Part shown: positions 27,289 through 40,864 of the stretch, in pieces
Numbering within the stretch: position 1 is the first letter of the stretch
Layout of the letters: each line of letters starts with the position of its first letter
NCBI GenBank assembly: GCA_900095095.1
Contig: FMBT01000305.1
Coordinates: forward strand, 485,115-549,114
DNA length: 64,000 bases
Source of the DNA: Fragilariopsis cylindrus CCMP1102
Taxonomy: Eukaryota; Bacillariophyta; Bacillariophyceae; Bacillariales; Bacillariaceae
Direction of reading: 5' to 3'
Notes under the pieces: generated by a model
What the model saw: only the letters and a program-made list of their open reading frames with translations
Database searches by the model: none
Told to the model about the DNA's origin: nothing
Program-made: the position numbers and the translations under genes

Positions 27289-28023
27289 TACGATACGAAT
27301 ATCAGCACAACCTCTTAATTGTTCCTTCTTCTTTTCATCCCACGATGGACGGGTTATTCCTGCACTACTGAGCATCACTACTTTTGGGTAGTCCGTTTGT
27401 TGTTTTTGTTGCTGCATAATTAATTTTGCTATGATTGGAATCCCAACAATATCAATCGATTGTTTAGAAGATGGTGGCGGTGGCGGTGGCGTAGAGTCAT
27501 CGTTGGAGGCACCATCCTTCGAATCTATTCCAAAAAACGATAGCACCTTCGCAAATATCGATTCATTTTTAGGCGAGTCGTCATTATCTTTGGATTGAGT
27601 TTCATCAGCAAATCCTGTGGCACACCAAATGGTAGCATCACAACCTTCTACGGCCTTCGCAATACTGATCTGATCGGTTAGTATGCATTCTTGTATCGAT
27701 AACATATCATTATCTTCATTTGACGAAAATACTTCTAGCGCCTTTTCCTTATTCCGGACCAAACCAACAACTTCGACCTTTCTTTTTAACAACTCTTCGA
27801 CCACTAAACGACCTGTTTTACCAGTAGCACCAGTCACTGCTACCTTTTTTACTACTTCATTGGTCGGTATCAATGACAATTCAGCATTGTCGTTGTCTTC
27901 GGTGGACGACAACGATGATGAGGTCGATCTGATCGTTACGACAGGGCGGAGAGAAAATCCATCTCCATTAGCAATTATCCATCCCAATAGAGAGATGAGC
28001 GTTAAACTTCTTCCATTCATCAT
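27289..28023 (-). CDS. N-terminal half of a plastid-targeted NmrA-like SDR
   Basis: The ATG at 28023 starts a signal peptide (LTLISLLGWIIA) with Phe near the cleavage point (GDGFSL), the bipartite plastid signal of diatoms. The Rossmann motif TGATGKTGR follows, then VVGLVRN and an ATIWCATG segment, typical of the NmrA/NAD(P)H-binding family. A poly-Pro insert precedes VVMLSSAGITRP. The conserved reading ends at CADIRIV (27289). Beyond that the frame runs into Ile-rich low-complexity sequence and stops at 27187. The rest of the enzyme is encoded 1.8 kb away at 24951-25502. Plastid relatives are structural or assembly factors or reductases; the substrate here is unknown. The gene is probably inactive unless the segment between is spliced out. 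Confidence 0.75.
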
Positions 28024-28130
28024 GATTTAATAGATAATGATATGACGGCGGTAATGATTATGAGCGGTGTGATATGTTTTGCTTGTGATCGGAAATGTAA
28101 GCAAAAAAGGAAAAAACATGCGTCTGATCC

Positions 28131-28382
28131 AAACATGCGAAAGCTACGATGGTACGGGACAAGGACAGACGAAATATCAAGGTGAACCACACAAACATTT
28201 GGAACCAATGCGTCTCGTCTTGACGATTGGAATTTATCAAGGTGCTGTTATCCTCACAACTTTGAAATATCAAGGTTAATACAACAGCTTACCCTTGGAC
28301 TAGAGTCAGTTAATCAGCAAGATTATAAGATACAATTCCAGATCAGAACTGTATCCGCCGAATCTATTGTACGATTTTTATT
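28131..28382 (+). repeat. Left terminal repeat A1
   Basis: 252 bp matching A2 (38042-38293) without indels; the two flanking C bases at 28129-28130 also match. It holds three copies of (A/T)TATCAAGGT at 28174, 28234 and 28267, possible recombinase-binding sites. It ends 10 bp before the gag-like ATG. Confidence 0.95.
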
Positions 28383-28392
28383 CTAGTGTATC

Positions 28393-30705
28393 ATGGACCG
28401 CAATTTTAACATTAATTTTGAGTCGCCTTTGGCCTCGTCAGGCCAGGGCGGGTTCATAGCGGGAGGGGCACTGGCAAATGTGCCGGTGTCTACTCCTAAA
28501 GGTACGTCCGAGGGGGGGGTTTGTGTAACTGGCCTTTGTTCGCTTGTGTTCATTTGTGAAAAAGAGTTGCCGACGAAGTATTGTGGAGGCCAGATCGGAG
28601 GAGAAGGTGGGTCCAAGATGTGCATTAAGCAAAAGGATAAGTGTGATGTTCAATGTCATAAGAAGTTAAAGGCACCGTTCGTTACGCATCGCCAGTCGGC
28701 GTCTGGACAATATGTGTTGATGGGAGTGGGACTTCAACAGGACCAAGCTTACTTGTCACATATAGTTCCAGTGGAATGTTTCAAGGCTGATCAAGAGACC
28801 TACGCCAACGAAAGGCGTACGGTTGATAACTGGGACATGTTCTTCAGATCCATCAAACAGGGTGTGAAAGATAAAGAAGACGTCAGACTTGCGGCAGACG
28901 ATGCTGATGCGATAGCACAGGAGAGAGAATCATCCGGGGGATCGGCATCTCCAAAGAAACGGTCTATCGACCACAGGCTCCTTGAAGAAGAGTATAACAC
29001 CTTCGGTCAATTTGTGAACACACGTTGTATCGAAGATGGAGGTGCAGAGTCTCAGGAAGATATTTCGAACTCGATCGATGATTTGCACGCCCAGATGGGA
29101 TTCTTGACAAAGAAGGTTAAGAAGACAGAAATGAACCAGTTGAGCTATCCGTCTGACCAGACAGATAGGAGTCTAGTAAGTTTGCGAAATTTGGTAGGGA
29201 CCCGTCAAGAAGGAATGGGGCCGCTGTCGGTCATGGAATCAGTACACAATCTGACACAAATCGTGGGAACGAGGAGTGAAGGAGAAGAAGAGAAGTCAGT
29301 GATGCAGCTCCTAGCGGAGCGAAAAACGCAAATGACCGATTCGGAAGTGGAAACGTTCAGAACCCTGGTCGCCATCAATGGATCCGATTTGTCTATACTC
29401 ACGAGCCAATTGGTGTCGCAACTACGCCAAGGAATAAATGACCGATTCAAGGTGCCAGAAGCGTTCTTCGAGCACTGGACTTCGAGGGAGGGACTAACTG
29501 CCAGGCCACAAGTGTACGGAGACAAACTGGCTTCAAAATTAGACATGTTGGAAGCCAAGTTGAATTCGATAGTGGCGGCTGCACCACGTACTCAACAGCA
29601 ATCACATGCTAGGTTTGATTTTCGACTGAATGAACGAGCACCAGAACCAGCTTCGCCATCATATGGAATGGGACTTCAGGGACTTTCGCTAGAACACAAT
29701 CAAGCAGAAGACCAACCTGGGAGTACGGAATCCATGGAGCAGCTCATGGCATCCGTGAGAACGATCCAACATGAGGTAGCGACCATTAAGGAACAATTGG
29801 ATGACACTGTAATCGACGTAGGAGGCGTGCGGTTTAACACGAAGAGGGAATTGCAGGCGTGGTTAAAATTGAACGTTCGAGGACAAGAGGAGAATTTAGT
29901 CAAAGGCAAGACATCGATCCACACTCTTTTTCCAGATGCGTTGGGGTTGATGGGTATGATCTTATTGGATAGCACTCTTGCCGGAGGATCGTTGACAAGG
30001 ACCATGGAGTACAAAGCAATAGCGAAGAAAGCAGGTTACCACGGAGAGGTAGATGCGGCATTCATGGGATCTTTCGACTCGAGTCTCCCGAAGGTATTCG
30101 GAACAGCGAAAGCTGATACTGATTCAAGGATGATACCGATGGCCATGACGCCCCAAAAGTTCGATTCGGGAATACCGTCCACGTCTTTCAAGTCGAAGAT
30201 GAAGAAGGCATTGGACAAACAGGTGAGGAGTCTGAGAGGCCAAGCTGGAGAGCTACTTACGGGAGAGGCAAAGAATGTGGCAAAAGAATGTATAAATGAT
30301 GCACATGGTTTCGTAAACGACTTGATGAATTGGATGACAGTGACCAACATCACCATGAAACAAGAGCACGGAAGTGCAACGGAAACGGACAATTGGAAAT
30401 ATATTTCGCAAGCAGTAAATGCAATCTTTGAAAAGCTAGCAGAAGAACGATATGAGGGAAACTCAGCGACCGAGATTCATGAAATCGTCTGGTCATGTTT
30501 CAAAGGAGGTAAAGCACAAGCAGCGATTTTGGCCAAGGACATATCAGGACACAGTGCAGTAGTGGACGTCTTAAATCAACACTTGCAGGCATCCGCAGTG
30601 ATGAAATCGGAATACACTAAGACAATTGAATTCTTGAAAAAGGAACTGGATGCGGTATCAAAGAAAGCCAATCAGGCACTGACAGCAGCGCAAAAGAAGG
30701 GATGA
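28393..30705 (+). CDS. Gag-like ORF1 of the DIRS-like element
   Basis: 770 residues from the ATG at 28393, just downstream of repeat A1. The N-terminal third has a Cys-rich region (VCVTGLCSLVFIC, then KMCIKQKDKCDVQC) that could bind zinc. The middle is helical and charged. A coiled-coil-like segment (MEQLMASVRTIQHEVATIKE) lies near residue 450. The C-terminus is basic. I assign it as Gag by position only. After the TGA at 30703-30705 the same frame stays open for 33 more charged codons (PAKKKKEKE ... SSTSDPSGS) to a second TGA at 30805. That looks like the true C-terminus, so the first TGA may be a recent nonsense change or be read through. Confidence 0.75.
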   Translation: MDRNFNINFESPLASSGQGGFIAGGALANVPVSTPKGTSEGGVCVTGLCSLVFICEKELPTKYCGGQIGGEGGSKMCIKQKDKCDVQCHKKLKAPFVTHRQSASGQYVLMGVGLQQDQAYLSHIVPVECFKADQETYANERRTVDNWDMFFRSIKQGVKDKEDVRLAADDADAIAQERESSGGSASPKKRSIDHRLLEEEYNTFGQFVNTRCIEDGGAESQEDISNSIDDLHAQMGFLTKKVKKTEMNQLSYPSDQTDRSLVSLRNLVGTRQEGMGPLSVMESVHNLTQIVGTRSEGEEEKSVMQLLAERKTQMTDSEVETFRTLVAINGSDLSILTSQLVSQLRQGINDRFKVPEAFFEHWTSREGLTARPQVYGDKLASKLDMLEAKLNSIVAAAPRTQQQSHARFDFRLNERAPEPASPSYGMGLQGLSLEHNQAEDQPGSTESMEQLMASVRTIQHEVATIKEQLDDTVIDVGGVRFNTKRELQAWLKLNVRGQEENLVKGKTSIHTLFPDALGLMGMILLDSTLAGGSLTRTMEYKAIAKKAGYHGEVDAAFMGSFDSSLPKVFGTAKADTDSRMIPMAMTPQKFDSGIPSTSFKSKMKKALDKQVRSLRGQAGELLTGEAKNVAKECINDAHGFVNDLMNWMTVTNITMKQEHGSATETDNWKYISQAVNAIFEKLAEERYEGNSATEIHEIVWSCFKGGKAQAAILAKDISGHSAVVDVLNQHLQASAVMKSEYTKTIEFLKKELDAVSKKANQALTAAQKKG

Positions 30706-30858
30706 GAACCAAGTCCAGCGAAGAAGAAGAAGGAAAAGGAGCTAGCCGCCGAGAGGCAGAAAAGGGCAAGCGAGGAGAGTAGTACGAGTGATCCTTCAGG
30801 GTCGTGACTTAGATCGGACAGGCCGAGAAGCCAAGACGATTGATCGACAACAGAAGAA

Positions 30859-33800
30859 ATGTATGTGGAAGGAGACAACTACATAGCAGAGCGAGCTGAA
30901 GTATTGCTGATCAAAGCTACAGTAAAGTTAGGAATCATATCGAATCGCTATTCGACATGGATGTGGCACGTCGGTGCGATAGGAAGCGTGCAGTGGATGC
31001 GAAGTCCGAAGCAACCGCGAGGATGTACCAAGCACGATCCTCCATGGATTGGCGATGCGAAGGAAGGGAAAGGCATGACCGATGTAGAAGCGATTTTGGT
31101 ACAAGGCAGTTGGCCTGCTATTGACGATCCTATATGGAGCATGGCTAGCTTGACAGTCGCCGTCCGAGTACACGTGAAACAAAGGAGACGAAGCAAGAAG
31201 GCCAAAGTCACGCTCCCAGATGGATGGGTAGAGAAATGCACATATTCGATACACCATCATGAAGTTGGAGGAGTAACAGATGGAGAGTTTCAGGTGGAGA
31301 TTCGATCTAACAATTGCATGCACGCAATTACTCCGATCGCTCAACCAAGCGTGTCAGGAAAACTGGGTGAAGCTTTGGATAACATGCAATCCGGAAGGGA
31401 TGTGGTTAAACCAGAAAACAACCAAATTAACTCATCGCGTGGGTTATTGGAATGGGGAAATCGAAGTGGAAGGATTCACACTACTTCAATATTTCGGCCA
31501 GGAAGAGGAGTGATTAGATCAATGTTAGCGAAAGAAAAAGCGCGAGTATTAGATTTCCCGGATACACGAACAAATCGAATGATAGAGGATGATTTAAACC
31601 TCTTGATAGAAAACGAAGTACCAGGAAAAGTGATAGTCGCCAGCATGTATTTTCTTACAGCATGGCGAAGGCCGGCCTCCGGCAAAAGGACAAGGGACAC
31701 GACAGCAAGTGAATGTGAAGACAGGAGGACGAAGCGCAATCGAGCGGATCCAGTCAACGCACCCATAGAAGCCGAGGTGTCGGAAGTCGAAGTAAGCACA
31801 GTCGAGGAGGATGCAGAACAAGACGAAAGTGAGGAATACGTTATGGAAAATGGAGAATGGAGTGATCCTAGTAAAGAGCATGACCAAGACAAGGCTACGA
31901 GGTCGGATGGCGCGTCCATCCCGTATCATTTATGGAACGACAGGATAGCCAGTAAGCTGGGGGAATTTTGGAAATCAGCTGACTACAAGAATCCCCCACC
32001 AACTCAAAAGAAAGATGGCAGTCCAGGTCGACGACCCGCTACAACACAACCAAAGTTGAATGTTGACGTCCCGTTGGACAGGTTGAAATTGAACAGGATG
32101 TTGCGAATGTTGAGAAAAGCAGCGTCAAAATATTGGAAACACCTCGTCAAGAAGAGTTTTCATGATTGGTTTGAACGGGTAGGAAAGCAGCATAAGGATC
32201 ACGAAGCGATAAAAGTAGCTGGCGAAGCCTCGGTTGCGAAAGCAGCAGAAACTTCGTGGTGGGAATGGAAACGAGGATCTACTATCTTCTTCTGGAGATG
32301 GCCTCCCGACTACCAAGATGTCGTCAGAGAAGGTCTCCTTCCAATGTTCGATACGGATCCTCCATCCAACAGCGATCGTCAACCACCGTACGACGATGAT
32401 AAAATAAGAGAGCAGGTGAAGAAGAAAGTAGACAGTGTAATGATGAAGGGTTATGTGGATCTGGTAGACATCAAGCAAATCGAGGCGTATATGTATATGT
32501 TTCATGTACCAAAAGGAGATGACATCCGAATGGTATACGATGGTTCCAAGTCTGGATTAAACAATGCGCTGTGGGCACCTTGGTTTAGTTTACCCACCAT
32601 TGACGCCATGTCTAGGTGGGTGATAGCCGGTTCATGGCTGGCAGATAATGATTATGGCGATATGTTCCTCAATTTTCCACTTCACGCCTCATTGCAAAAG
32701 TATTGCGGCATCGACCTCACTCAACTATATCCAAATATGAAAGGGGGAGAAGCCAGCGTGATGGTCGCAAGATGGTTGCGAAACGCCATGGGATTGCGAA
32801 GCTCACCGTATGCGTCGGTCCAAGGAGCGTTGCGGGCGAAACACATCGCACTAGGAGATCCAGCAGATGAGAACAATCCTTTTCAATGGGATAGGGTGAT
32901 TGAAAATCTTCCTGGTACACAGGAATACGATCCTTCACTACCGTGGATCATGAAAATGCGGAGAGATGGAAAATCAGCCTCAGACATTGCACAGTACGTC
33001 GACGATATGAGAATCATAGCAGCTACAAAAGAATTGGCGTGGCAATGCAGCAGTCGAACCGCGAAGACACTGTGTCATTTAGGGTTGCAAGACGCTGCAA
33101 GAAAACGTAGACCTCAAAGTCAGAGACCAGGGGCGTGGGCAGGAGCTACTATAGCCTCAGACGGAGATGTGGTGACAAAAGGCGTAACCCAAGAACGGTG
33201 GAACAAGTTACAGAAGAAGATAAGGTGGATCGCTCACCAAGTCGGACTGAGAGACGAGTTCACGGAGGAAGACGTTGGAGCGGGTAGTCAAGGAGCAGAG
33301 GAGACACCAGAGGGCAAGATACGTTTCAAAACCACAGAACAATACGTGGGGTTCATAGTGTACGTGTCTATGACCTACACAACATTGATCCCTTACCTTA
33401 AGGGAATATACCTCACGTTGAATTCATGGAGGTCTGACCGAGATAAAGAGGGTTGGAAAGAGATGAAACGCAGGCCACAAGTGAACAACAAGAAGTACAA
33501 GAGAGAGAAGGCTCCAAAGTGGGTCGACGTGGTGCCACGGCTGAAGCACGACATGCAAGCGCTATTGGAATTAACGTGTTACAAACATCCACCTGACGTT
33601 CCTATTCGATCAAAGCACAAGCATGCAATGTATTTAGTAGGGGACGCATCAGGAGCTGGATTCGGATCTTCCAGTTGGTTGGAAGGAACCGACGAAGTGC
33701 ATGCGGATTTTGGCAATTGGAGCAAGGCTGTCACGGAAGGAGAATCATCAAACTTTCGTGAGGCAGGAAATTTAGTCATCCGGTTGAAGCGAATGGTTGC

Positions 33801-33909
33801 ATCAGGAGAACTTGCCAAAGGATCGGAAGTTGGGTGTTCACCGACAACATGGTTGCAGAACGCACATACTTTAGAGGATCGTCCAATAATTCAAAACTTC
33901 ATCAATTGA
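30859..33909 (+). CDS. Reverse transcriptase and first part of RNase H (ORF2 of the DIRS-like element)
   Basis: ATG at 30859. The first ~480 residues are poorly conserved, with an acidic stretch at about 310-360. The RT palm follows: FHVPKGDDIRMVYDGSKSG, ALWAPWFSLPTID, DNDYGDMFLNFPL (motif A, about residue 597) and QYVDDMRI (motif C with YVDD, about 711). These wordings are typical of DIRS RTs. RNase H begins with GDASGAGFGSS (about 930), and its Glu follows in NFREAGN. Reading then leaves the domain: at 33829-33833 (GTTGGG) a -1 shift is required to continue into VFTDNM in the next frame. As it stands the protein ends at 33909 with a truncated RNase H. Confidence 0.9.
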   Translation: MYVEGDNYIAERAEVLLIKATVKLGIISNRYSTWMWHVGAIGSVQWMRSPKQPRGCTKHDPPWIGDAKEGKGMTDVEAILVQGSWPAIDDPIWSMASLTVAVRVHVKQRRRSKKAKVTLPDGWVEKCTYSIHHHEVGGVTDGEFQVEIRSNNCMHAITPIAQPSVSGKLGEALDNMQSGRDVVKPENNQINSSRGLLEWGNRSGRIHTTSIFRPGRGVIRSMLAKEKARVLDFPDTRTNRMIEDDLNLLIENEVPGKVIVASMYFLTAWRRPASGKRTRDTTASECEDRRTKRNRADPVNAPIEAEVSEVEVSTVEEDAEQDESEEYVMENGEWSDPSKEHDQDKATRSDGASIPYHLWNDRIASKLGEFWKSADYKNPPPTQKKDGSPGRRPATTQPKLNVDVPLDRLKLNRMLRMLRKAASKYWKHLVKKSFHDWFERVGKQHKDHEAIKVAGEASVAKAAETSWWEWKRGSTIFFWRWPPDYQDVVREGLLPMFDTDPPSNSDRQPPYDDDKIREQVKKKVDSVMMKGYVDLVDIKQIEAYMYMFHVPKGDDIRMVYDGSKSGLNNALWAPWFSLPTIDAMSRWVIAGSWLADNDYGDMFLNFPLHASLQKYCGIDLTQLYPNMKGGEASVMVARWLRNAMGLRSSPYASVQGALRAKHIALGDPADENNPFQWDRVIENLPGTQEYDPSLPWIMKMRRDGKSASDIAQYVDDMRIIAATKELAWQCSSRTAKTLCHLGLQDAARKRRPQSQRPGAWAGATIASDGDVVTKGVTQERWNKLQKKIRWIAHQVGLRDEFTEEDVGAGSQGAEETPEGKIRFKTTEQYVGFIVYVSMTYTTLIPYLKGIYLTLNSWRSDRDKEGWKEMKRRPQVNNKKYKREKAPKWVDVVPRLKHDMQALLELTCYKHPPDVPIRSKHKHAMYLVGDASGAGFGSSSWLEGTDEVHADFGNWSKAVTEGESSNFREAGNLVIRLKRMVASGELAKGSEVGCSPTTWLQNAHTLEDRPIIQNFIN

Positions 33910-34574
33910 TATTGGGATTACGAAAGATGGAAATGGAAGGTGATTTGATAATTCACTTTGTGTGGATCGCGGGAAAAAGAATGATTGCACAAGGGACAGA
34001 TGGATTGTCAAGGGGAGAACTTTCAAGTGGAGTGATGTCGGGAAAAGATTTTCTACCTTACTTACCTCTGAATGAGACCGCCTTCGACAGAGACCCTAAG
34101 CTGAAGAGTCGTATACAGGGATGGCTGGTCACGGACGATTGGAAAGTAGCCACAACGGCCGATTGGTTCCATGGCGTGTTCCAGGATCCTAATGGAGCAT
34201 GGATATGGGCTCCGCCACCTGCGCTGGCCAAGGTTGCGGTGGAGCAAATGTGCGAGGCGAAACACATTTTTCCGAATTCGAAACATGTCTTCGTTTGTCC
34301 GGCATTGATGACAGGGTACTGGCGAAAGCAACTGGGAAAACTGGCCGACACAAGCTTCACAATCAAAGCGACGGAGAATGGGACTTGGGAGAAGGACATG
34401 TTTGAACCACTAACGATTGCTTTTGTTCGCCCCTTATTATCGTCCAGACCTTGGAAAGCAGGAAGACTTAATCGAGTGTCGACGTGGAAAGGAAATTTGC
34501 GTGAAATGCGATGGGACAATCCCCGAGATGTCAGGAATCATATGCGGAAATTTTGGTTGTCGCAAGAACGATAA
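33834..34574 (+). CDS. Second part of RNase H and connector (ORF2 continued, -1 frame)
   Basis: This frame begins at the RNase H motif VFTDNM and continues to GTDGLSRGELSSG, the DIRS RNase H signature. A connector follows with VFVCPALMTGYWRKQL-like and FTIKATENGTW segments, also found at this place in DIRS polyproteins. The first codon shown is GTG, not a real start: the sequence belongs to ORF2 and is reached by a -1 shift at 33831. Because the shift falls inside a catalytic domain it is more likely a one-base deletion than programmed frameshifting. Its 3' end overlaps the recombinase ORF by 158 bp. Confidence 0.85.
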   Translation: MFTDNMVAERTYFRGSSNNSKLHQLILGLRKMEMEGDLIIHFVWIAGKRMIAQGTDGLSRGELSSGVMSGKDFLPYLPLNETAFDRDPKLKSRIQGWLVTDDWKVATTADWFHGVFQDPNGAWIWAPPPALAKVAVEQMCEAKHIFPNSKHVFVCPALMTGYWRKQLGKLADTSFTIKATENGTWEKDMFEPLTIAFVRPLLSSRPWKAGRLNRVSTWKGNLREMRWDNPRDVRNHMRKFWLSQER

Positions 34575-35973
34575 CAAGGAATGCAGAAATGCTTGGCATG
34601 GATCCTGCTTCGTGCAGGACGAACAAGACAAGTTCCCAGTCCTACAGGTGCAGGACCTCGACGATTCACTCATGGACGAGAGCGCTCTCGAGGACGATGA
34701 CCCCATGAGGTTCAAGGAAGCAAGGGAGGGAGACTATCTCATGACTCCTTTTCAATGTCCAGACTGTCATTTCTTCAACATCACTAAAAGGCTGCCAGCA
34801 GCGACCAATTCGATCGATGCTTTGGCTTTGGTGTGTATTAAGAGAGCGACGTTGGATAGTTTTTGGGCAAGAGAAAGATCAACAGTGAATTCAAACAGAT
34901 TGGAGGGCAAGAAGTTTCATTCGAATCAGAGGGAACTAGGTTTCGAAAGAGAGTGTTTGCCTCCAAGGGGACCACATCCACCACGAGACGTGTGGGGCAT
35001 GGCGATCGCCTGCGGCATGTTGATGCGATCCAAGGACCCAGGAAGGAACGCAGCAACCATTCAATACGAGACGTTGAGGAAGCAACGGTCGTTTTACTCC
35101 AACTTTGTACATACGTGCCAAGGAGGAGTAGGATCGACGTTCGTCAAGGATGATGGCACTGGAGCATCGGTGTCCAACTCCAAGACAAATCAACTCTGGT
35201 TTAAAAGGTTTATGATAGGAGTTCATCGGCGGATGGGAGACGTATGGATGCCGGATAGAGCTCTGAGTCAGTACGAACTGAGCAGCAGCTTCGAAGTGTT
35301 AGAAACGAAGTGGAAAACGTTCGAGAATGATCCGGTCGGTAGAAAGAGTGTAAGTACCACAGCGTGTATCCTCATTGCAGGATATTACGCGGCATTACGA
35401 GGAGAGGAAATCAACAGAGTAGACGTAGGTGCAATGCGAAAGCATTGGACGGAGGCGGTCACTCATGAGGCGCATCCACATATTCCATTGATGCTGGCTG
35501 GCACATTCAAAAATGAAATCGGACAGAAATTGTTTTGCCAACCGTTGGTGTCTAAGACAAAAGGAGGAAGAAACATTGAGAAATGGTTCAATCGGTTGTT
35601 GAACATCCAGGGGCAGGAAGGAATGGTCAAGGGACCCATGTTCCTAGGCCGCAACGGAAAGCGCATGTCCATTGCTGAAATGGATGAGTATTTACATGCA
35701 ATTTTGCTGGATGTTCAGAGACAATTTCCACGGGTATTAGCGGATACCGTGAAAGTTTATGAGGAATTCAGTGTCTACAGATCGTTACGACGAGGAGCGA
35801 CATCCGAGGCACAAAATGCACAAATTCCACAAGATGTCATAGAAGCAAACAATCGTTGGAGGAAGCTGTGTAGAGCCAAAGGTCTAACCCCTGGTGGATC
35901 AATGATGGAACGATACACCGATGCCAGAGTGTCAGTACTGGCTCTAACGCGGTTCTCGGCTAATTTGCCATAG
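34417..35973 (+). CDS. Tyrosine recombinase with N-terminal PHD-like finger (ORF3)
   Basis: The open frame overlaps ORF2 and has no ATG before its first domain (the frame's 5' limit is a TTG), so translation probably depends on frameshifting or an alternative start. Residues about 26-130 contain CVKC, GNFGC, ECRNAWHGSC and CPDC, a C4HC3-like PHD pattern. The catalytic part shows AALRGEEI (first Arg, about 326), YRSLRRGATSEA (box II Arg, about 455) and NNRWR, then MMERYTDA with the likely nucleophilic Tyr (about 499). The box II His of classical recombinases is not at its usual place (Arg in RSLRR). Family role: integrates the circular or linear cDNA by site-specific strand exchange. No stop or shift is seen within this ORF. 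Confidence 0.88.
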   Translation: MLLFAPYYRPDLGKQEDLIECRRGKEICVKCDGTIPEMSGIICGNFGCRKNDNKECRNAWHGSCFVQDEQDKFPVLQVQDLDDSLMDESALEDDDPMRFKEAREGDYLMTPFQCPDCHFFNITKRLPAATNSIDALALVCIKRATLDSFWARERSTVNSNRLEGKKFHSNQRELGFERECLPPRGPHPPRDVWGMAIACGMLMRSKDPGRNAATIQYETLRKQRSFYSNFVHTCQGGVGSTFVKDDGTGASVSNSKTNQLWFKRFMIGVHRRMGDVWMPDRALSQYELSSSFEVLETKWKTFENDPVGRKSVSTTACILIAGYYAALRGEEINRVDVGAMRKHWTEAVTHEAHPHIPLMLAGTFKNEIGQKLFCQPLVSKTKGGRNIEKWFNRLLNIQGQEGMVKGPMFLGRNGKRMSIAEMDEYLHAILLDVQRQFPRVLADTVKVYEEFSVYRSLRRGATSEAQNAQIPQDVIEANNRWRKLCRAKGLTPGGSMMERYTDARVSVLALTRFSANLP

Positions 35974-36131
35974 AGCAATACGTGTTTCCAATATTTCAAA
36001 TAAAAGTGATAACTATTATATGTTAAAAAACTATTCTTCTATGATCGTGATTCTGTATCAGTGTCACATTCGAGTTCAATAGCAATTCCTTCATAACATC
36101 CTTTTGTTTGCGATTACGGACAGTCAACCTT

Positions 36132-36911
36132 TTATTCTTGGTCATCCTCGGATTCCTCGTCGTCAGAAAAGCGAGAGGAATCAGAAGAGGAACCTTCGCT
36201 AGAGGAGTCAGAAGAGGAACCGTCGTCGGAAGAACCAGAGCCGCTGGAATTTTGAGACGAATCGGAGCCAGAAGAATACACTACAGGTTCTTTTGGAGGA
36301 GGTACAGGCTTCACGACCAACTCTGCAATGAACTCCGGAGAAAGCTCCCAGGTAAGCTCATTGTTGCCCCCGCTCATAATAACTGCACCGACAGCTACTA
36401 AACGATCCAGGGATGGACCAACCGTATGACACCTAGGCGACAGGCCTGTGTTATCACACCGAATCTGTCGAGACAAAGGTCCCGGACTTGAGATCATGTC
36501 AGTCAACAATTTAACAGCAGGAACAAACAACTTGCGGCGTTTTCGTGACCAGTGCTTCATCTTGTGCCGTTTGAGGAACCTCTTGATAACTTGAGAGTTC
36601 AGACGACGGCCGTCCGCGAGAGTTGACTCGGCATTGTCCAACACCGTTTTGGAATCATTCCGGGAGTCGCGACGTTCGTCCATCTTCGTCCGAAGGAGGT
36701 CACGACTAGTCTCATCATGCAGCAGCTTCGCCTTGTCAGCAGTGATAATTGTTGCAAGTGTAACAAGAGCACTGGAATCCTTCAAGAGCTCGCTCTTCTG
36801 GGAAGCACAACGAGTTGTCGCATCGTTGACGAGGCCCTGCTCGACAGAAGAAGGAACGTCAACGGCATCGATGAGTTCATAGGCAATTGCTTTGGAACCG
36901 TTGTCAACCAT
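36132..36911 (-). CDS. Antisense accessory ORF inside the DIRS-like element
   Basis: 259 residues from the ATG at 36911 (a more upstream frame limit at 36965 adds a hydrophobic leader that looks accidental). It is transcribed towards the recombinase gene, whose stop is 158 bp beyond this ORF's stop. The N-terminal half is helical and charged (ATIITADKAKLLHDETS, LRTKMDERRDS). A basic central region follows (KRFLKRHKMKHWSRKRRK), then a possibly folded part with CDNTGLSPRC, and an acidic Ser/Asp-rich tail. Composition is that of a real, probably nuclear protein, and it is not a shadow of another ORF. I recognise no family. It could be an element-encoded regulator or a captured gene. Confidence 0.6.
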   Translation of the reverse strand: MVDNGSKAIAYELIDAVDVPSSVEQGLVNDATTRCASQKSELLKDSSALVTLATIITADKAKLLHDETSRDLLRTKMDERRDSRNDSKTVLDNAESTLADGRRLNSQVIKRFLKRHKMKHWSRKRRKLFVPAVKLLTDMISSPGPLSRQIRCDNTGLSPRCHTVGPSLDRLVAVGAVIMSGGNNELTWELSPEFIAELVVKPVPPPKEPVVYSSGSDSSQNSSGSGSSDDGSSSDSSSEGSSSDSSRFSDDEESEDDQE

Positions 36912-36965
36912 TTTGAAGTTAGAAAGCGAAAAGAATTGGAAACGATAATACAGGAGAAGTAGCAA

Positions 36966-37580
36966 ACAAATCGAAAGTTGGCTTTCGAATGTAGTTTGTT
37001 TTGAGATTGTGAGAAAAAGGAAAGGAGGAAAATTACGATGAAGGAAGTAGGAAACAGGCCATGGAAAATCCCGGGTGCTGTCCTATCACCCAGTATCGGA
37101 GTGGTTTACGAAATTGGTTCTAAACATGAAACGGAATGATCACTGTCCAGGTAGAAAAGGAAACGAACAGGAAAAAAACGGATAAGACACGTTTTGAAAA
37201 GATTTTGTGAAGAGCGTGGAATGAAATAAAAGAAATTCACATTGTTTCAGTCACACGCTCGACCAAAAGGAAGTTAAGGAAAGGAGAGAGCCGATCGTGG
37301 AGCGCGCGCCATGCCGCGACAAGGAATAGATGCGACACGTTGAAAAACAGAGAGAAGGGCGAGCGAAGAAATAATTTCGATTACAAAATAAGGAAAAGGG
37401 AAACAAAAGACGAGTTTTTGTTATCGGGTTGGCAAGACACCGAGTGCATTAAAAACGCACTAAAGTCTTACCAATGTGGATCATGCACCAGGCTTTGGAA
37501 TACTGAAAGAGGCTGACTCCTTGATCAGGTATGAGTTACCGGATGGTGCACGATTTGATGAAGTATAAATGTCGGGAGGG
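36966..37580. other. Internal non-coding region of the DIRS-like element
   Basis: 615 bp between the antisense ORF start and repeat B1. No ORF. It must contain the antisense ORF's promoter if that gene is expressed from the element. Confidence 0.6.
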
Positions 37581-38041
37581 GGATTGAGATGATTTTGGAT
37601 TCGTTCAAAGGATTCTAGTTTTACTAAACTTGACGAAACTGATCTGTTCCGAAGCTAGATTGAAATTGAATGATTGAACGGATTAGGCATCCGATTGGTG
37701 ATTTAATGACGAGGACGAGGACTACCTCTCCTTGTCAAAGCTGGCCCTGCGGGGAAGGTTGTATTTATACAGCCGGGGGCTTTTCAAATATATCTACTTT
37801 GACAACACTATCTTTGACGAAATGCTTTAGACAGAAAGACTGGCATCTTTCTGGAAACTATTGTCTGTTTTTAACAGATGGCGATTTTTGGCGACTCCGG
37901 TCGCCGGGCAGACCCCCCCTTTCTAAAGGTGAACACTAGTGTACACTTTCCGGTATTAAATAATTCTAATCAATTAAAGTTCAAGTTAATATATTTGTGC
38001 GTGTGAAACACCTTGTAATTCATCTAACAAAATCCTGTGCC
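37581..38041 (+). repeat. Split direct repeat B1
   Basis: 461 bp, same length as and apparently identical to B2. Contains a perfect 6-bp-stem hairpin GGCGACTCCGGTCGCC (37890-37905) and an 89-codon ORF that exists only because it lies in the repeat. It abuts A2 directly. Confidence 0.95.
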
Positions 38042-38293
38042 AAACATGCGAAAGCTACGATGGTACGGGACAAGGACAGACGAAATATCAAGGTGAACCA
38101 CACAAACATTTGGAACCAATGCGTCTCGTCTTGACGATTGGAATTTATCAAGGTGCTGTTATCCTCACAACTTTGAAATATCAAGGTTAATACAACAGCT
38201 TACCCTTGGACTAGAGTCAGTTAATCAGCAAGATTATAAGATACAATTCCAGATCAGAACTGTATCCGCCGAATCTATTGTACGATTTTTATT
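38042..38293 (+). repeat. Split direct repeat A2
   Basis: Copy of A1, 9911 bp further on, with the three TATCAAGGT sites. Followed by an 18-bp C-rich spacer before B2. Confidence 0.95.
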
Positions 38294-38311
38294 TTCCCGC
38301 CCACCCACCCT

Positions 38312-38772
38312 GGATTGAGATGATTTTGGATTCGTTCAAAGGATTCTAGTTTTACTAAACTTGACGAAACTGATCTGTTCCGAAGCTAGATTGAAATTGA
38401 ATGATTGAACGGATTAGGCATCCGATTGGTGATTTAATGACGAGGACGAGGACTACCTCTCCTTGTCAAAGCTGGCCCTGCGGGGAAGGTTGTATTTATA
38501 CAGCCGGGGGCTTTTCAAATATATCTACTTTGACAACACTATCTTTGACGAAATGCTTTAGACAGAAAGACTGGCATCTTTCTGGAAACTATTGTCTGTT
38601 TTTAACAGATGGCGATTTTTGGCGACTCCGGTCGCCGGGCAGACCCCCCCTTTCTAAAGGTGAACACTAGTGTACACTTTCCGGTATTAAATAATTCTAA
38701 TCAATTAAAGTTCAAGTTAATATATTTGTGCGTGTGAAACACCTTGTAATTCATCTAACAAAATCCTGTGCC
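38312..38772 (+). repeat. Right terminal repeat B2
   Basis: Copy of B1, offset by 731 bp; hairpin copy at 38621-38636. Ends with CTGTGCC, which is the right end of the element. Confidence 0.95.
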
Positions 38773-39099
38773 TGACTGCTTCGTGGCTGACACGCGCGAC
38801 TCGACTGAATCACATGTTACAGTACAGCCAGTTATGAATCAAACTCAACGAAGCAAATATCGCACGACAAACAATTATTGTTGCTACTAGTGGTACCAAT
38901 AGTAATATAGACTATTTCAAGCAGAATTGAGTCTAGTAATATTCCTATTGAGTTCCAGGTAAGAAATATTGATTCCAAACTGTTATGAGTTATATGTATA
39001 ATATGTATTTTAATATATCCAATCGACCAACTTTATTTATCCCCCATTGTTTTCACTAATTCTCTTCTTACATGTAATCATTAATAATACTGTAAACAA
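38773..39099. other. 3' flank of the element
   Basis: Host AT-rich sequence between the element and the stop of the NF-YC-like gene. No feature seen. Confidence 0.6.
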
Positions 39100-40864
39100 T
39101 TAGATTACGTCTACCAAAAAGTCAAAAATATCCGTCTTTTGAATGGCCTCACGAATATCTTCCTTTTGCAATGTTCTTCGTTTGTGCAACTGTGAATAAT
39201 TCCAACTGCGGATGCTTAAATCCAAAATGAAGAGCTCACAGGCCTTGGCAAAAAGGACCGGTGCCTCAGCGGAGATCATTCGAACATCCTCATCGGATTT
39301 CATGATACGCTTGATACGGGCTAGTGGTAGATCATTGTGTGTCTTGAAGTCTTGTTCAGTCTGCCCCTTCAGTTCTTGAACAGATTGGAGTTGTTCCTTC
39401 CAAAATTTATCAAGATTGCCGTTAAGTTGGGCTAAAAATTGAGGACTCGATGAAGAAGGAGCCGGGGCTGAAGTGACGAGACCATCAACTTGTATAGTAT
39501 CCATGGGAACTCCTCCTACCGTAACTAATGGACTTGTCACCGGACGGGCAATAGGTACAGATGTGAGACGAGAAGATCCCATTACTGGATTTGGAACACT
39601 AGACGTCGTTGCTACCGGTCTAGCGACAACGCGACTTGCAGGTTGTCGGGGGGCAGCTTTTGGAGTTTCTTTAGGAGTCTCGTCGCCTTTGTAAATGCCG
39701 GCTGCAATCTGCGCCTGAGTGTGAGCATGAACCAGAGCTTGAGCTGCGTATTAATTAAGTAACGATTGAAAACGTAAAAACAGAAAATTTTAAGGTAAGT
39801 AAAAAGAAAAAAAGTCAACAGGAAGGAAACGAGTTATCCTTACGGAAGAGAAAAGCTAAGCTGGTGGGAGAAAAGGACCTCGGAAGAATCAGCGAAATGG
39901 TAATATGTCTGTCATATGGTTTCAGAGAATGAGATTCGATTAGTTATCGTCATCGGTGTTCTCCTCTTCTCCCCGTTCGCTTCGCTCTCTATAAAAATTG
40001 GAAACTGTACATTTTGTACTATACATACCTTGAAGTTGGATCTGGGTTTGGATTTGTTGGGGAGTTCCTTGAGATTTCCTGGCATGGACAATAGCTTGTG
40101 CTTGAATCTGACTTAATGCATGAATCTGGCTCTGATTCATAGGAACAAGACCATCTCCTCGAGATTTGGCGGCGGCTACCACAGCCTGAGCTTGAGCTGC
40201 CGCTTGTACCATAGCCTGAGCTTGAGCCTTTAAGAAGCATTTGAAAATTGCGTGCGCGAATGATTGAGCGAAGAGAGCGAAATAAGTTAGCAAAACTGCT
40301 CACAGAGCGAATGACAAACCAATGACAGTCGTTTTGATATCCAAACAAAGTTGCATTCCACAACGAGACAATGCGTCTCGTTATTATCTTCGAGGGACAG
40401 TCTAAGGAGATTGAAACTATAATAGGACAATCAATAATTTGTTGTTACAGTAGTTAACTTACCTGGATCTGTTCGGGAGTAATGTTAGCCTGTTGTCCAC
40501 GAGCGGCTGCCGCTTGGAGTTGTGCTTGGAGTTGTTGTTGTAACTGCTGTTGAATTTGCTGTTGCAACTGAGACTTTTGTTGTAGAGTAGTTGCGGGTTT
40601 CTTGGCAACCGGTGCAGGTGCTGCCACAGCTGGTCTCTTTTTCGTAACATCAACGGTTTGGTTTATAGTAGTAACCGCCGGCGATAAGCCGCTAGAAGAA
40701 ATTACTGATGCATTTGTAGTCGTTGTGTTGGTAGTAGAAGAAGGAAGGGCAGGAAATTTTGCGGGTTCCACCTTTATTCCTGGTGCAGTCACCGCGGCTT
40801 GTTGTTTACCTACTTCATTGTTGGTGCTTACTTTATCCGGTTCAGTTTTTATGGATGGATCCAT
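39100..40864 (-). CDS. NF-YC / HAP5-like CCAAT-binding factor subunit
   Basis: Three exons: 40463-40864, 40029-40227 and 39100-39743. The introns (40228-40462, phase 0; 39744-40028, phase 1) have GTAAGT and GTATGT donors and AG acceptors. The product is 414 residues. The last ~85 residues are a histone fold with the NF-YC signature: LPLARIKRIMKSDEDV, ISAEAPVLFAKACELFI, and a C-terminal LQKEDIREAI helix. Before it is a long Gln/Ala/Pro-rich region, typical of NF-YC activation domains. Family role: pairs with NF-YB, then NF-YA, to bind CCAAT boxes in the nucleus. The animal/plant trimer contacts (KSDEDVRMI, RRTLQ) are present, favouring NF-YC over NC2-alpha/DRAP1 or CHRAC. The start divergently faces enolase. 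Confidence 0.88.

Follow-up and report, generated by a model that had tools for sequence, protein, structure and literature searches.

A probable tyrosine-recombinase retrotransposon of the DIRS order with split direct repeats, one of at least two related families in an algal nuclear genome

The stretch of DNA analyzed here (the window) covers 64 kb of a genome of 67.9 Mb, assembled in 818 contigs; C-numbers designate contigs of the same genome. Between positions 28131 and 38772 the window harbors a putative retrotransposon of 10.6 kb, in which open reading frames (ORFs) and repeats follow the order A1-ORFs-B1-A2-spacer-B2. The left terminal repeat A1 (28131..28382, plus strand) and its internal partner A2 (38042..38293, plus) are 252 bp long and match at 252 of 252 positions. 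B1 (37581..38041, plus) and the right terminal repeat B2 (38312..38772, plus) are 461 bp long and match at 461 of 461 positions. The original prediction, made from the letters of the sequence, had given these same lengths, and they proved exact, with 0 mismatches in either alignment. A2 and B2 are separated by an 18-nt spacer, TTCCCGCCCACCCACCCT (38294..38311), which carries a G-quadruplex motif on its minus strand. The internal B1/A2 joint is the joint that the two ends of the element would form in a circle.

The repeats enclose four ORFs on the plus strand and one on the minus strand. ORF1 (28393..30705; 770 aa) occupies the position of Gag and has no recognized domain; an N-terminal C..C..C..H pattern is common to ORF1 and its relative in C414. 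ORF2 (30859..33909; 1016 aa) encodes a divergent reverse transcriptase (RT) and the first part of RNase H; the RT core (32371..33144, plus) reads SDRQPPY ... DNDYGDMFLNF ... YVDD ... GAWAG. The remaining RNase H (TDN ... DGLSRG) is found in ORF3 (33834..34574), followed by a conserved region. ORF4 (34414..35973, stop to stop) contains a zinc-finger-like Cys/His cluster and then a region resembling a tyrosine recombinase (YR), with motifs at residues 326, 455, 479 and 497. The antisense ORF (36132..36911, minus strand) encodes 259 aa from its ATG (316 codons from stop to stop), with a long predicted helix, a conserved C-terminal part and an acidic, Ser-rich tail.

Further copies, which the original prediction had proposed to look for, are present in the assembly. 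The counts are lower bounds: at least 13 matches were obtained with A1 plus the start of ORF1, and at least 19 with B2. Beyond the window, the full layout is found in C210 and C565. C478 and C462 are two element parts, broken at the adjacent element positions 37457/37458; C573 carries a 5′ element end at the contig edge, and C99 a solo A-spacer-B unit. Older remnants (e.g., C612) also exist. Substitution divergence from the window is 0.29% in C478, 0.57% in C573, 0.63% in C210 and 0.67% in C565, and in each of C210, C565, C462 and C529 the two members of a repeat pair are set apart by no more than one substitution and one gap. Recent mobility, as originally proposed, is thus well supported by near-identical copies and by identical or nearly identical paired repeats.

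A caveat concerns the flanks of these copies. The 5′ flank is identical in C210, C565 and C478 (462-499 bp compared), in contrast to the 3′ flanks, which differ among C210, C565 and C462; contigs C210 and C565 end 3508 bp upstream of A1. A misjoin of the assembly at a repeat of 10 kb is the likely cause, ectopic recombination being the alternative. Because 5′ flanks are shared while 3′ flanks differ, insertions were counted by distinct flanks, and the 5′ ends of C210 and C565 were treated as possible misjoins. The repeats themselves are not a local assembly artefact, since the same arrangement recurs on C210, C565 and the diverged C529, and its 3′ part on C462.

C529 contains a complete element of a second, diverged family, with A1/A2 repeats of 279 bp (1 mismatch) and B1/B2 repeats of about 479 bp (1 gap). 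Its layout is the same as in the window: a half left end, and B1-A2-spacer-B2 at the right end. C414 is close to C529 and has the same 5′ flank, and no B2 was found in the stretch read. C279 and C580 show stops, and no such direct repeats in the stretches read. When the window was compared with C529, amino acid identity was 56.9% for ORF2 (961 aligned codons; proportion of nonsynonymous differences, pN, 0.28), 67.3% for YR (456 codons; pN 0.21) and 22.1% for the antisense ORF (213 codons; pN 0.57, the fastest-changing ORF). For ORF1, compared with C414, identity was 33.5% over 704 aligned codons (pN 0.47). The proportion of synonymous differences (pS) is saturated in all four comparisons (0.78-0.81), and ratios of nonsynonymous to synonymous rates (dN/dS) are therefore not given. 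We infer that Pol and YR are under purifying selection, while ORF1 and the antisense gene appear to change fast.

To find an empty site, both window flanks were joined and searched against the same genome. A diverged homologous locus without the insert was detected at C499:71925-72404, with 81% identity across the entire 500-base query. The alignment passes the joint with a 3-nt gap, a few base changes and no duplication; other indels lie nearby, including one with a length of 37 nt on the right side. The lack of a target-site duplication at this locus is as expected of the DIRS order. Immediately before the A repeat stands a C in all five distinct 5′ flanks (the window; one common to C210, C565 and C478; C573; C99; one common to C529 and C414), and CC in four of them. 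B2 ends in CC in the six distinct 3′ flanks (window, C210, C565, C462, C99 and C529). The pattern of joint and flanks fits insertion of a circle by a recombinase.

The enzymes were examined next to the architecture. A YVDD box of RT is found at 32992, and the RNase H boxes GDASGAG, ESSNFREA, TDN and DGLSRG follow in order, a succession that we take to identify RT and RNase H. The PADLOC RT model matches three of the four sequences given: C529 (E 0.0061), the window (E 0.02; residues 95-288 of the translation of 32242-33834) and C414 (E 0.022). No match was obtained with the piece from C279, which is devoid of the first half of RT. Taking the PADLOC matches together with the ordered RT and RNase H boxes, we consider the RT-RNase H assignment sound. 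With a profile built from three RT sequences, the YVDD box is matched to a Moloney-type RT at E 1.1, the nearest solved RTs being retroviral. Grouping of the RT with Ty3, Copia or long interspersed nuclear element (LINE) lineages would have spoken against the element type proposed; the only RT signals are the weak ones to the general model (E 0.006-0.02) and to retroviral RT (E 1.1). The structure model of RT has a mean predicted local distance difference test (pLDDT) score of 35.7, and a single-sequence search of the PDB with C529 Pol yielded no match.

Identification of the recombinase is at motif level only, and depends on boxes, position and element architecture. The YR-like boxes of the window (LRGEE, RSLRRGAT, NNRW and Y) are kept in both families, with the exception of the Lys box; the Arg, RSLRRGAT, NNRW and Tyr are invariant across three aligned YR sequences. 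A YR motif expression picks ORF4 alone among 41 window frames; the same expression is satisfied by 74 and 86 of 20,000 shuffles and fails to recognize eight of ten reference YRs. In pairwise comparisons with ten references, scores do not rise above noise, save for FimE and the window, for which 4 of 300 shuffles were as good (83 of 300 for C529 and FimE). PDB profile searches of YR and ORF3 gave irrelevant matches only (E 1.9 and 2.1), and PHROGs returned one functionless family for two of the three YR sequences (E 0.14). Hence the RT, RNase H and tyrosine recombinase motifs claimed in the original prediction are all present as boxes, the latter with the reservation made above.

Several observations weigh against identification of the element as a YR retrotransposon. 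Neither Pfam (E up to 1 and up to 10) nor NCBIfam (E up to 10) detects an RT, RNase H or recombinase family in it, whereas domains of fungal DIRS and Ngaro elements are reported to be detectable by such profiles (PMC3783388). The His of the HxxR box of YR is replaced by Arg in both families, and the Lys-containing box SKTKGGR of the window is STTNAGR in C529, so that the Lys box is not kept. Scored against a profile of nine YRs from bacteria and phages, the window reaches -1.4 bits, below the best shuffle (6.2 bits), and C529 receives no score; the same profile gives 32 bits for a YR ORF on C60 of the same genome.

A genome-wide Pfam search for YRs identified ten other places, none of them in these elements. 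They represent a different YR family, found at C60:27705-28007 and nine other places; nine of the ten are above the cut-off of Pfam PF00589, with frames of up to 420 aa.

On balance, we interpret the element as a tyrosine-recombinase, split-direct-repeat (DIRS order) retrotransposon that represents one of two or more related families in this nuclear genome, most likely that of a diatom, and assign this reading a probability of roughly 0.85. Support comes from the repeats, the near-identical copies, the recurrence of the layout in C529 despite its widely different Pol, the solo A-spacer-B unit, the empty locus, the B1/A2 joint, the C and CC at the flanks, the RT model matches, the RNase H and YR-like boxes, and the low pN of ORF2 and YR. 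The proposal of a split-direct-repeat element of the DIRS order in an alga is thereby upheld by architecture, copies, empty homologous locus and identical repeats.

The placement of the element within the order is less clear. Split direct repeats A1, B1, A2 and B2 are a feature of PAT-like elements, and B1-A2-B2 downstream of a YR-like ORF is a feature of Ngaro-like elements; both are seen here. By the definitions of DIRS1-like and Kangaroo elements in PMC4157794 and PMC3266345, the element is of neither type: no inverted repeats of at least 30 bp were detected within 27500-39500, whereas the DIRS1 type would have inverted terminal repeats and an internal complementary region, and the YR-like ORF is in sense with the internal repeats downstream, instead of a YR on the opposite strand with repeats between methylase and YR. 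An Rfam scan of 27500-39500 found nothing reaching the gathering score.

The reading frames have a bearing on this question. RT and RNase H form a single 1240-aa frame in C529, where ORF2 and ORF3 are one, while the frame changes inside RNase H in the window and in C210. Pol and YR overlap by about 155-157 nt at the Pol end in both families, with YR in the +1 frame, and conservation across this overlap extends to both frames. In C529, YR has its first ATG downstream of the first part of the zinc-finger-like cluster. Because conserved finger sequence precedes that ATG, YR would be made by +1 frameshifting or from a non-AUG start. An overlap of Pol and YR is said to be unusual for Ngaro and Viper (PMC3266345), and raises the possibility that the element is PAT-like, with an inactive methylase-like domain, rather than Ngaro-like. 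In agreement with this view, the conserved region after RNase H (at about 34200-34350, within ORF3) can be aligned with the NPPY region of Dam methylases of the T1 type, where the methylase-like domain of DIRS/PAT elements is expected. The resemblance is, however, without significance: hhalign gives a probability of 0.3% and E 0.2 over 23 columns, and Dam hidden Markov model scores are -1.6 and -2.6 bits, below the best shuffles. We consider PAT-like affiliation an open contender, with chances slightly short of even.

A second question is whether the element is alive. Compared with the window, indels amount to 9 in C210, 29 in C565, 10 in C478 and 3 in C573 (1.4 kb compared), and none of these 51 indels has a length that is a multiple of three. 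In addition, the window and C210 share the frame change in RNase H, and ORF1 of C529 is split. A family that is recent yet extinct, with all copies in the assembly dead, would explain these facts. On the other hand, 32 of the 51 indels (6 in C210, 16 in C565, 7 in C478 and 3 in C573) are in homopolymers of at least 3, as expected from long-read error; each copy has paired repeats with few or no differences, and the Pol and YR frames of C529 are open. Extinction is therefore a possibility that we regard as somewhat doubtful. The indels of the copies could reflect sequencing error or real decay alike, and competence of any copy is not supported. The element had been predicted to be complete, which is correct for repeats and ends; its reading frames, in turn, are interrupted in the window copy.

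The antisense ORF is also found in C478, C210 and C565, and an ORF at the same antisense place is detected in C529 (E 3.7e-6) and C414 (E 5.3e-6). The model of the antisense protein has a mean pLDDT of 53.2, and the long helix, at about 70, is its only usable part; the pattern of the C-terminal part may point to a winged helix. The acidic Ser-rich tail is encoded by a 27-bp tandem repeat (window 36174-36239) and is absent from the relatives on C529, C46 and C91. Members of the antisense family are found on C46:183140-183841, C88:729453-730154 and C164:495623-496321, listed as 100% identical, and these contigs are absent from the lists of RT matches; they may be allelic versions, or represent either a host gene or a non-autonomous element. 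Furthermore, C91:892798-894700 contains a 684-aa open frame (635 aa read) with a Pfam MYND finger (E 6.5e-9) and a C-terminal domain related to the antisense protein; this domain is 58% identical to the protein of C46, and identity falls to 41% with C529 and 26% with the window. The frame is possibly a host gene, either domesticated or the donor. The existence of relatives outside the element, together with the fast change of the antisense ORF (pN 0.57), would also suit a captured or decaying host fragment that is not a gene of the element at all. We find this explanation rather unlikely, as the antisense position and the open frame are the same in two families.

The spacer is another conserved trait. 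The same 18 letters are found in C529, C210, C565, C462 and the C99 solo copy. When the A2-spacer-B2 units of the window family and the C529 family were compared, 420 of 788 aligned columns were shared, and a 36-nt block around the spacer at the A2/B2 junction was identical. The minus strand of the spacer, GGGTGGGTGGGCGGG, is the only match to (G3+N1-7)x4 in the 64-kb window, and likewise the only one in the C529 element. B2 contains a hairpin, GGCGAC-loop-GTCGCC, at 38621, also kept in C529, and the stretch that harbors it folds better than 194 of 200 shuffles. A role of the spacer in strand transfer of complementary DNA (cDNA) or in end formation may be proposed, if only weakly.

A tRNA primer at the A2/B2 joint was also considered. 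A T-arm/acceptor pattern gave 15 genome matches, versus 6 for the reversed control; the two best-looking candidates turned out to be copies of a single repeat, without any tRNA detected by ARAGORN, and the other 13 were judged from the match letters alone. Hence, a tRNA primer is unsupported.

Solo A-spacer-B units resemble solo long terminal repeats (LTRs), and the nearest solved RTs are retroviral (E 1.1), but an LTR retrotransposon whose end was rearranged or nested, with A-spacer-B as LTR and a left LTR deprived of the B half, is very improbable, as the diverged C529 has the same half left end and B1-A2-spacer-B2 right end, no integrase or protease domain is detected by Pfam (which detects nothing else of the element either), and the empty locus on C499 shows no target-site duplication.

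If the element is a YR retrotransposon of the DIRS order, its cycle may be tentatively outlined. Element RNA would be reverse transcribed by the ORF2 enzyme, and the end sequence missing from the RNA would be restored by annealing within the B1-A2 copy, giving rise to a circle in which B2 is joined to A1. Insertion of this circle would then be the work of the ORF4 recombinase, through crossover at a core as short as C or CC. The product that combines finger and recombinase would probably be made as an extension of Pol by +1 frameshift. The weakest step concerns the antisense protein, which would probably be a nucleic-acid-binding accessory or regulatory factor. A further, unlikely reading is that these elements form a separate lineage of YR retrotransposons with a conserved antisense nucleic-acid-binding factor, whose domain is also present outside the element in the three-copy ORF, that the MYND-fused 684-aa relative is a domesticated or donor host regulator of the element, and that the quadruplex-forming spacer acts in cDNA strand transfer or circle formation.

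The neighborhood of the element was also examined. On its left lies an ORF for an NAD(P)-binding, NmrA-like protein (28023-27187, minus strand), whose ATG is 107 bp to the left of A1; the promoter of this gene may be affected by insertion at such a distance upstream of the ATG (window 28023-28131). The right neighbor encodes a histone-fold (CBF/NF-Y) protein (39582-39100, minus strand). Ten further long ORFs of the window were scanned, and six have clear Pfam domains typical of nuclear genes (WD40, bromodomain, DnaJ, enolase, tRNA-binding domain and methyltransferase). The Pfam silicon-transporter model has 27 matches in the genome, all above the cut-off, and none above the cut-off in 14 control genomes. 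From the silicon-transporter genes we conclude that the host is a silicifying alga, most likely a diatom.

Relatives were sought in contig collections. In viral contigs, C529 Pol gave no pattern match, and two DNA patterns gave 13 loci with a best tblastn E value of 0.07. No relative was confirmed in these searches, by YR alignment (29 stretches) or RT alignment (77 stretches) in viral contigs, nor by RT alignment in genome contigs (76 stretches). As these collections contain few eukaryotic sequences, such negatives say little about distribution. The element was not found described in the open-access literature searched, mostly at title level.

Three aspects may be of general relevance. Annotation with Pfam and NCBIfam is blind to the RT, RNase H and recombinase of the element, and algal elements of this kind can be missed even where LTR tools are not limiting. 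With two families in one genome, a replication cycle about which little is understood becomes open to comparison, including ends, circle joint, spacer and Pol/YR overlap. Lastly, exchange between retrotransposon and host may have taken place in the case of the antisense gene and the relative fused to a MYND finger.

The element can be compared with several known systems. The diatom Phaeodactylum tricornutum has DIRS entries (PMC5859163; 14 copies and 18,118 bp, listed in a table without their structure). The ALOG-type DIRS1-like retroposon of Ectocarpus (PMC3537659) also has a stramenopile host, a comparable length of a little over 9 kb, a YR protein that starts with a zinc-binding motif, and extra fast-evolving ORFs; it differs in its terminal direct repeats of 159 bp and in the location of the extra ORFs at the 5′ end. 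No ALOG domain was detected by Pfam in ORF4 at E up to 1, in a search that also misses the YR. With PAT-like elements (PMC4157794, PMC3266345) the element has in common the split direct repeats and, possibly, a methylase-like region between RNase H and YR, and differs in having YR in sense and the internal repeats at the 3′ end. With Ngaro elements (Cafeteria burkhardae, PMC8547959; Ectocarpus, PMC12477816) it shares the A1-[ORFs]-B1A2B2 repeats and the order Gag, RT-RNase H, YR; solo AB repeats have also been described for Ngaro (PMC8547959), as in the C99 solo copy. Differences from Ngaro are the size (10.6 kb, compared with about 6 kb in Cafeteria; PMC8547959), the Pol/YR overlap, the antisense ORF, and an RT and YR undetected by Pfam. 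Altogether, the element, from a divergent algal lineage, is known in kind and, as far as our searches reach, new in its sequences, its antisense accessory gene and its conserved spacer.

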